Shown here one piece after another: positions 2,533 to 36,746 of a stretch of DNA of 55,176 bases. How positions within the stretch are numbered: position 1 is the first letter of the stretch; each line of letters begins with the position of its first letter. The DNA comes from an uncultured Ectothiorhodospiraceae bacterium (GTDB lineage: Bacteria; Pseudomonadota; Gammaproteobacteria; UBA9214). Where the stretch lies: contig CAMYIO010000019.1 in the NCBI GenBank assembly GCA_947258515.1, positions 1 to 55,176 on the forward strand, given 5' to 3'. The notes beneath the pieces were generated by a model. That model saw nothing but the letters and a program-made list of their open reading frames with translations. It had not been told where the DNA came from and ran no database searches. Both the position numbers and the translations under genes were made by a program.

Positions 2533-3347
2533 GATGGATGGCGTATTTCCTCTATGACCGGGCGGGTATCCGGCCGCACGGCGCGCCACAGATAAAATGA
2601 TTCGGCGGCCTGTTCCACCAGCATGCCCAGGCCATCCAGGCAGCGTGCTGCACCGCGCTGCTGTGCCCAGTCCATGAAGGCAGTGGGCCTGTCAGCGTAC
2701 ATCATGTCGTAACAGCAGCTGTCTGTTGTCACGACACTGTCCGGCAGTGCAGGTACCTGTCCTGCCAGGCTGGCGGCCGTCGCATTGATGATGAGATCGA
2801 AATGCTGGCCGGCGACGTCTTCCAGCCCGCAGCCCTCGGTATGGCCAAGATCACAGAACAGGCGTGCCAGTTCGACTGCCTTTTCAGGGGTGCGGTTGGC
2901 GATTACCAGCAGCGCCGGCTTTTCCAGCAGCAGCGGTTCGATAACGCCACGTGCGGCACCACCGGCGCCAACCAGTAATAAACGTTTTTGTTGCAGCGTG
3001 CTGCCGTGGTTGTGTAACAGGTCACGTACCAGGCCGGCGCCATCGGTGTTGTCTCCGAAGTGCTTCCCGGATGGATCCAGCACCAGGGTGTTGACCGCAC
3101 CGGCACGTTCGGCGCGGCCGCTGCGTGTCTGCGCCAGCGACCAGGCCTCTTCCTTGAGCGGTACCGTGATATTCAGGCCTTTGCCGCCGGCGTCAAGGAA
3201 TTCGCCAACGGCCGCCGCCAGCTTTCCGGACTCGACCCGGATGGCCTCGTATTGCAGTTGCTGGCCGGTCTGATGGGCAAACAGTGCATGGATGCGGGGT
3301 GACTGGCTGTGGGCAACGGGGTTGCCCATGACGGCATAACGATCCAT
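2529..3347 (-). CDS. aroE: Shikimate dehydrogenase (NADP+)
   Basis: Reduces 3-dehydroshikimate to shikimate with NADPH in the chorismate pathway. The 272-aa length is normal. The N-terminal substrate domain carries GNPVAHSQSPRIH, the catalytic Lys in NITVPLKEEA and the catalytic Asp in GDNTDGAG. The Rossmann domain begins with LLVGAGGAARGV followed by ANRTPEKA, typical of NADP-dependent AroE. The gene starts 17 bp after hemB on the same strand, so the two are probably co-transcribed. Its 3' end overlaps the convergent carbonic anhydrase-like gene by 4 bp. Confidence 0.97.
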   Translation of the reverse strand: MDRYAVMGNPVAHSQSPRIHALFAHQTGQQLQYEAIRVESGKLAAAVGEFLDAGGKGLNITVPLKEEAWSLAQTRSGRAERAGAVNTLVLDPSGKHFGDNTDGAGLVRDLLHNHGSTLQQKRLLLVGAGGAARGVIEPLLLEKPALLVIANRTPEKAVELARLFCDLGHTEGCGLEDVAGQHFDLIINATAASLAGQVPALPDSVVTTDSCCYDMMYADRPTAFMDWAQQRGAARCLDGLGMLVEQAAESFYLWRAVRPDTRPVIEEIRHPS

Positions 3348-35778: not shown

Positions 35779-36187
35779 AGAAGTGGTAGACGTGCCACGA
35801 CTGAGTTTTGGATCAAGTGATTGTGAGTCTTGCGCAACCACAACCTACACCCGCACCCCTCAACACAAGGTTAACCAGTAACTGGATTATTTTGCAGTGA
35901 GCGGAAGTGAGTTTGCCGCGGGTTTATGGCGTTCACCTGAGTGCCAAAAGTATTACCAAACAGGCAGGATGGACTCGGGTGCTAACTACCTTCTCATGCA
36001 CTGAGTGGCGGACTTATTTCCCGAGGGTATTGTATTCGCCCACACCCGAGTACTTATAAAGATAATTCACAGTATCACTGATGCACATTGTCCATAGGTA
36101 CAAGCGGGCTGACTTGTACTTTCGAACAATAGTACGTCTTGCCAGAATTGGACATGATTGTAACAGTACAACTTTCTGGGAGGCATC
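35779..36187. other. Intergenic region without a recognised gene
   Basis: No conserved protein or RNA was recognised. An inverted repeat GTACAAG/CTTGTAC with an 8-bp spacer lies at about 36097-36118, roughly 70 bp upstream of the 39-aa ORF. It may be part of that ORF's promoter. Confidence 0.3.
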
Positions 36188-36307
36188 ATGGAAATATTCA
36201 GTAGTCTGGCGCTGGTATGCGCTTCAGTAGGAATGGTTGCAGCGGCTGCCGGCCTGGTCTGGTTCTGGATGAGGTTTTCGCGAATATTTCGAAAGCATTT
36301 TCGCTGA
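36188..36307 (+). CDS. Putative 39-aa single-helix membrane protein
   Basis: A short ORF begins MEIFSSLALVCASVGM and ends with a strongly basic tail (RFSRIFRKHFR). Residues 5-29 form one hydrophobic helix with Ala/Gly packing faces, then positive charges, so the C-terminus should lie in the cytoplasm. Support for translation is the near-ideal ribosome site GGGAGG six bases before the ATG. There is no homology call. It sits alone among non-coding sequence. Confidence 0.5.
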   Translation: MEIFSSLALVCASVGMVAAAAGLVWFWMRFSRIFRKHFR

Positions 36308-36475
36308 AGCAGGCTTAATCAACAGGGCAACAATGGCAGGCAGACAACCCCGGGCCGGGGTACATCTTCAACCCTCTACTGCTGGTAACCGACAGGCAAA
36401 GACAAAAGATTTATGTTCAAACACGATTCAGATTAATAAACAGGTGAATCTCTGAACCCTGTGGGAGTTATTGTG

Positions 36476-36489
36476 TTGACGTGCGTCAA
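36476..36489. promoter_or_regulatory. Palindrome TTGAC-N4-GTCAA (Crp/Fnr-family type site)
   Basis: A perfect 5-bp inverted repeat with a 4-bp spacer, the half-site spacing used by FNR/DNR-type regulators. Unlike the site at 36733, neither strand shows a good -10 hexamer at the right distance, and no gene start follows closely. It lies about 90 bp past the 3' end of the 29-aa ORF. Confidence 0.3.
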
Positions 36490-36578: not shown

Positions 36579-36668
36579 TCAAAGTGCCATAACAATCGAA
36601 ATCGCAAGCACTATCAGAAAGGCCAACACCAGGTCTTCCTTGAGATGCGATGGTCTGCGAATGCCCAT
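36579..36668 (-). CDS. Putative 29-aa single-helix membrane protein under an FNR-type promoter
   Basis: The ORF begins MGIRRPSHLKEDL with a short basic/polar N-terminus. It is followed by one hydrophobic helix of about 17 residues (VLAFLIVLAISIVMAL), and the chain stops with TGA directly after the helix. Translation support is AAAAGGTGAT with the core AGG about six bases before the ATG. Transcription support is the promoter described at 36705-36746. The predicted 5' UTR is 30 nt. Small bitopic proteins of this type often regulate membrane enzymes, but no partner can be named. Confidence 0.6.
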   Translation of the reverse strand: MGIRRPSHLKEDLVLAFLIVLAISIVMAL

Positions 36669-36704
36669 ATATCACCTTTTGACTGTATTTCAAAGACTGA
36701 GAAT

Positions 36705-36746
36705 ATTATAAATAACTGTATTTGAACGTGCCTTGATCCACGTCAA
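36705..36746 (-). promoter_or_regulatory. Class II FNR/Crp-type promoter: TTGAC-N4-ATCAA box plus TATAAT
   Basis: On the minus strand TTGACGTGGATCAA (36746-36733) matches the FNR consensus TTGAT-N4-ATCAA in nine of ten positions. After 22 bases comes a perfect TATAAT (36710-36705). With that hexamer at -12 to -7, the start is at 36698 and the box is centred at exactly -41.5, the position for class II activation. The 29-aa ORF starts 30 bases downstream of the predicted start site. Confidence 0.7.

Follow-up and report, generated by a model that had tools for sequence, protein, structure and literature searches.

A conserved 29-residue predicted membrane protein encoded behind an FNR-type promoter in an uncultured gammaproteobacterium

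A stretch of 55,176 nucleotides from an uncultured Ectothiorhodospiraceae bacterium (the window) contains an open reading frame of 29 codons preceded by what resembles a promoter for the oxygen sensor FNR. The question raised by this locus is whether a gene this small is real, whether it answers to oxygen and what its product may do. Annotation overlooks proteins of such a size, and one of them in E. coli proved to be an oxidase subunit. An earlier note on this DNA had described an FNR-type box with 9 of 10 consensus bases, a TATAAT element 22 bp further on, a 30-base leader, an ORF of 29 residues and a box centre at −41.5, and all of these parts were recovered at the locus, the transcription start being an inferred one (Table 1). 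Transcription was assumed to begin 7 bases past the −10 element, at 36698, and both the value of −41.5 and the length of the leader follow from this assumption.

Table 1. Features of the 29-codon gene, its promoter and its family. Positions are those of the window; G000 is the genome from which the window derives.
Feature	Position	Strand	Remarks
FNR-type box, TTGACGTGGATCAA	36733–36746	−	9/10 consensus bases; centre −41.5 from inferred start (class II position)
−10 element, TATAAT	36705–36710	−	22 bp past box
Leader, 30 bases, inferred	36669–36698	−	Start site placed 7 bases past TATAAT
Shine-Dalgarno sequence, AAAAGGTGAT	36671–36680	−	AGGT-N5-ATG spacing
29-codon ORF, product MGIRRPSHLKEDLVLAFLIVLAISIVMAL	36579–36668	−	ATG at 36668, stop ends at 36579
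Another tiny membrane gene, encoding 39 aa, MEIFSSLALVCASVGMVAAAAGLVWFWMRFSRIFRKHFR	36188–36307	+	Convergent with the 29-codon gene
Shared DNA element, GGYAACCGAYAGRC (0–2 mismatches)	36384–36397	+	Copies in L096, L101, L095, L068, L060
Paralogues of the 29-codon gene			G000 C36 (three tandem ORFs), G000 C13, G004 C43, G003 C157
Five family promoters with a box			Window, G013, G020, G000 C36 (box at 194 bp), G003 C157 (102 bp)

The box was the sole site with no more than one mismatch in a one-strand scan of the window for the palindromic motif, and shuffled sequences averaged 2.2 such sites, so the box by itself is unremarkable. Its combination with a perfect TATAAT at a distance of 21–23 bp occurred a single time in the window, and 100 dinucleotide shuffles yielded no instance, which bears out the earlier contention that these parts were unlikely to have come together at random. 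Across the whole genome, a perfect TATAAT at 22 bp was found at one of 51 oriented TTGAYN4ATCAA sites, and that site belongs to the 29-codon gene. The arrangement, with the box centred near −41.5 of the inferred start and 22 bp to the −10 element, is that of a class II promoter. A further symmetrical FNR-like site, TTGACGTGCGTCAA, matching at 8 of 10 positions, was read by eye at 36476–36489, between the 29-codon gene and the convergent 39-aa gene.

The first third of the 29-residue protein, MGIRRPSHLKED, is polar and basic, and the remainder is a single hydrophobic stretch that reaches the C-terminus, with a Kyte-Doolittle maximum of 3.25 (15-residue mean). Since the hydrophobic stretch follows a basic N-terminus, the protein is expected to cross the membrane once and to keep its N-terminus inside, and the product is predicted to be a single-span membrane protein on the strength of its composition. 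No family in Pfam or NCBIfam fitted it at E-values up to 1, and a literature search, largely of open-access papers, returned no description of the family. The gene is unannotated, and its product constitutes a protein family that is new but of a familiar type.

Relatives were sought at several depths. A protein search of 96 genomes, comprising the host genome and its relatives, detected the protein in four genomes beyond its own with E-values of 9e-9 to 2e-4; two of these (G004 and G003) belong to the same genus and two (G013 and G020) to two other genera. A profile search of the order gave orthologues in the same five of 23 genomes (E 4e-17 to 1.3e-14), many of the order genomes without a detected gene being incomplete. 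In a sample of 369 genomes of the class, strong matches were confined to this order, all others having an E-value of 0.0048 or worse. A strict DNA pattern, which demands AGGT-N5-ATG and would let looser relatives escape, was run against a named genome collection and recovered four contigs of metagenome-assembled genomes (CAJQNP010000253, JAJDNX010000089, CP070821 and CAMYJI010000011), labelled Gammaproteobacteria or Ectothiorhodospiraceae, which match the four genomes already found. The ribosome site AGGT-N5-ATG was present ahead of all ten listed ORFs of the family, while an eleventh ORF (G003 C157) lacked it.

M1, P6, H8, D12, F17, L18 and V26 are invariant in the alignment of the five orthologues. 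Among the ten pairs of orthologues dN/dS was between 0.20 and 0.61 in seven, 0.98 and 0.87 in two and undefined in one. These values, drawn from just 29 codons, indicate purifying selection overall, which is weak where G020 is compared with the host genome and with G013. Conservation of the ORF in relatives excludes chance as its origin and, judged by that conservation, the gene is real.

The promoter followed the gene less faithfully. The earlier note had proposed that box, −10 element and ORF be looked for together in related genomes, and of these the ORF recurred, as above, in five of 23 genomes of the order, the box in three of the five orthologues (window, G013 and G020), and the −10 element in altered form in one. 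In G013 the box reads TTGACATGGATCAA and in G020 TTGACATGAATCAA, and it precedes the ATG by a similar distance, 70 and 69 bp respectively, compared with 64 bp in the window. At 22 bp past the box G013 has AATAAT, while G020 has GAAGTA (1/6), nothing resembling a −10 element. No box was found within 250 bp of the gene in G004 or G003, the two orthologues from the same genus. The original reading is thus upheld, as far as sequence can do so, for a conserved single-span protein behind an FNR-type promoter, and amended in that the box is not universal.

When the paralogues were included, a box (no more than one mismatch, within 250 bp) was present in five of nine family promoter regions, against a mean of 0.15 and a maximum of 2 in 1000 shuffle sets. 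The window, G013 and G020 genes are orthologues, so these five boxed promoters are not independent events. The box of the G003 C157 paralogue lies 51 bp ahead of a TATAAT (by eye), which would place it near −70.5, a distance of the class I type.

The host genome was also inspected for a wider set of such sites. TTGAYN4ATCAA gave 52 matches on both strands (37 distinct sites) compared with seven for a reversed control, and a box with TANNNT 20–24 bp downstream occurred 18 times genome-wide, two of the 18 being the same site, compared with none for the control. In an offset scan covering 51 of the 52 oriented sites, TANNNT lay at exactly 22 bp in ten; each of the remaining offsets between 10 and 44 accounted for zero to three. 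Genes downstream of boxes included hemN (TIGR00538, over cut-off), hypC and the gene of a hydrogenase maturation protease. A molybdopterin oxidoreductase and a protein resembling NuoE/NuoF are also encoded downstream of boxes, both as matches below their models' cut-offs. Boxes further precede genes for a CBS protein and for a Yip1 protein; the Yip1 gene is followed, on its own contig and strand, by a ccoN fragment, with which it would share one operon. Several box sites inside large ORFs are probably due to chance.

The FNR model NF008365 was matched over its cut-off in all 23 genomes of the order. The FNR of the host genome has cysteines at 17, 20, 26 and 119, which we take to be the cluster cysteines by the assignment in E. 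coli FNR, and the same pattern was seen in the FNR of G013 and G020. The host genome therefore appears, by sequence, to possess a working FNR regulon, in which the 29-codon gene has the best −10 element. The predicted control of this gene by FNR, switched on at low oxygen, is well supported by sequence: the box is kept in two other genera, though not in the two orthologues of the same genus, boxes recur within the family, and the genome has both an FNR regulon and an FNR with its cysteines.

The box could in principle be read mainly by another regulator of the CRP/FNR family, of the nitric oxide-responsive Dnr/NnrR type, in place of the oxygen sensor. Such paralogues often use TTGAT-N4-ATCAA too, and the host genome has five matches to the FNR model, of which the four below the cut-off offer candidates. 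However, an FNR with cluster cysteines is present, and the same motif precedes hemN and hydrogenase maturation genes, which are classical FNR/ANR targets; we consider this explanation improbable.

It is far less probable still that the locus acts as a small RNA, in the manner of SicX, with the ORF incidental. Folding of 199 nt spanning leader, ORF and 3′ flank revealed nothing beyond chance (z −0.07), and Rfam gave no match at the gene itself, so neither a conserved RNA structure nor a known RNA family was found. It is the protein that is conserved while the DNA diverges, and the family has paralogues and a ribosome site of fixed form.

What the protein might act upon was sought in its surroundings. 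In G013, G020, G004 and G003 none of the ORFs of 90 aa or more that surround the gene matched the window, and an all-against-all comparison of the neighbour ORFs yielded one pair (G020 and G003, 32% over 161 aa), situated near the ends of the stretches and away from the gene. As the window locus has no neighbours in common with the other four loci, the context names no partner. Co-occurrence with ccoN among the order genomes gave no contrast, ccoN being present in most genomes with or without the 29-codon gene. Two RNA features were observed in these regions: an RtT RNA adjoins a tRNA near the G020 orthologue (L036 8867–9016, minus strand), and a weak Rfam match to sRNA-Xcc1, which at 37.8 bits falls short of the gathering score of 53, lies at 35966–36051 of the window, minus strand (L002 885–970).

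We favour a reading in which the gene is an FNR-activated orphan whose product binds a larger low-oxygen membrane complex and stabilises or tunes it, and assign this a probability of about 0.45. Falling oxygen would lead FNR to activate the gene from its class II promoter, and the product would be translated from a strong ribosome site and enter the inner membrane, where by the positive-inside rule its basic N-terminus would face the cytoplasm. There it would bind a larger membrane protein whose synthesis also goes with low oxygen. The likeliest candidate is a respiratory or envelope complex of the low-oxygen state, which the small protein would stabilise or tune, much as CydY (YnhF, also named CydH) forms part of the bd oxidase of E. 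coli; the partner is a guess by analogy. On this likeness, a role in tuning a respiratory complex is plausible.

The main rival, which we regard as possible but doubtful, is a stress peptide under FNR control that accumulates when oxygen is depleted and, with no specific partner, reduces the potential or the fluidity of the membrane and thereby slows metabolism, like YohP or TisB. Sequence cannot separate a tuning subunit from such a membrane-acting peptide. The size and single span of the protein fit it, as do the tandem paralogues (three ORFs at C36), the patchy presence and the scattering over loci without conserved neighbours. The polar N-terminus, however, contains the invariant P6, H8 and D12, for which a pure membrane disruptor would have no obvious need. 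Typical type I toxins have a structured transcript, an occluded ribosome site and an antisense RNA antitoxin, whereas the 29-codon gene has a strong ribosome site and no special transcript structure, its leader and ORF folding no better than shuffles. The precedent is YohP, a protein of 27 aa reported to reduce the membrane potential and to bring about metabolic silencing (PMC12719787).

The 29-codon gene is not the only tiny membrane gene in this lineage. Homologues of the 39-aa gene that converges on it were found at C8 and C93 of the host genome, C157 and C149 of G003, C341 of G014 (two), C14 of G004 and C1 of G013; at G003 C157 the homologue lies near the paralogue of the 29-codon gene. 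GGYAACCGAYAGRC, followed about 37–40 bp on by a sequence resembling CGGTTCAAA, was found at six places near tiny membrane genes; in the window the spacing is 29 bp, and in L095 the second sequence is weak. Rfam gave no match at the scanned copies of this GGYAACCG element. A common RNA fold was also considered for it, and the single-sequence folds of the six copies had no obvious joint structure by eye; the alignment of the element took in two copies only.

Further arrangements were observed in the host genome. At C36 (L040 4398–5127) the three tandem family ORFs and a divergent 43-aa membrane ORF are separated by a perfect FNR palindrome, and a near copy of this 43-aa ORF, again with the palindrome, is found at C93 (L091 6362–6531), divergent there from a 39-aa-family gene. 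The palindrome stands too near the start of the 43-aa gene to activate it in the class II manner. At C14 a membrane ORF of 32–38 aa (L090 2570–2665, minus strand) lies downstream of an FNR box, with a divergent 67-aa membrane ORF (2977–3177, plus strand), a homologue of which (54% over 59 aa) is beside the G003 C8 orthologue of the 29-codon gene.

It is conceivable, though we think it unlikely, that the lineage has built a low-oxygen set of tiny membrane proteins from unrelated families (29–37 aa 'RPSH', 39–42 aa 'SLALV', 43-aa and 32-aa), several of them placed beside FNR boxes and the second shared DNA element, each tuning its own complex or all jointly remodelling the membrane at the loss of oxygen. 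Among these families the 29-codon gene is the one with a textbook promoter. That genes for tiny membrane proteins of several unrelated families stand near FNR boxes may be the more unusual aspect of the setting.

The host belongs to a little-known group of gammaproteobacteria, in which the 29-residue protein probably tunes something in the cell membrane. Because a conserved family stands at a textbook oxygen-sensor promoter, the condition under which to seek the protein is given and its function is directly testable. The case also shows that knowing where FNR motifs lie in a draft genome can aid the validation of unannotated genes.

The locus may be set beside systems already described. Class II FNR-dependent promoters have the same −41.5 centre and a −10 element at 22 bp, and with the start inferred no architectural difference was apparent. 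SicX/PA1414 of Pseudomonas aeruginosa is likewise a short gene behind a box for Anr, an FNR-type regulator, and SicX is induced at low oxygen; SicX differs in working as an RNA and, in the accessible text, is reported in P. aeruginosa only (PMC10247376), whereas the 29-codon locus conserves a protein. YohP of E. coli is also a tiny membrane protein made under stress, but is tied to starvation and stationary phase, FNR being unmentioned in that paper (PMC12719787). CydY/YnhF, by the accessible text, is the fourth subunit of the E. coli cytochrome bd oxidase, an orphan single-helix protein made at low oxygen (PMC6853902). The 29-residue family differs from CydY in being multi-copy and found in one order only, and the likeness drawn is one of description; in its very small size, single predicted helix, apparent link to low oxygen and, should it serve a complex, a gene away from that complex's operon, it would resemble CydY as described in the accessible text (PMC6853902).
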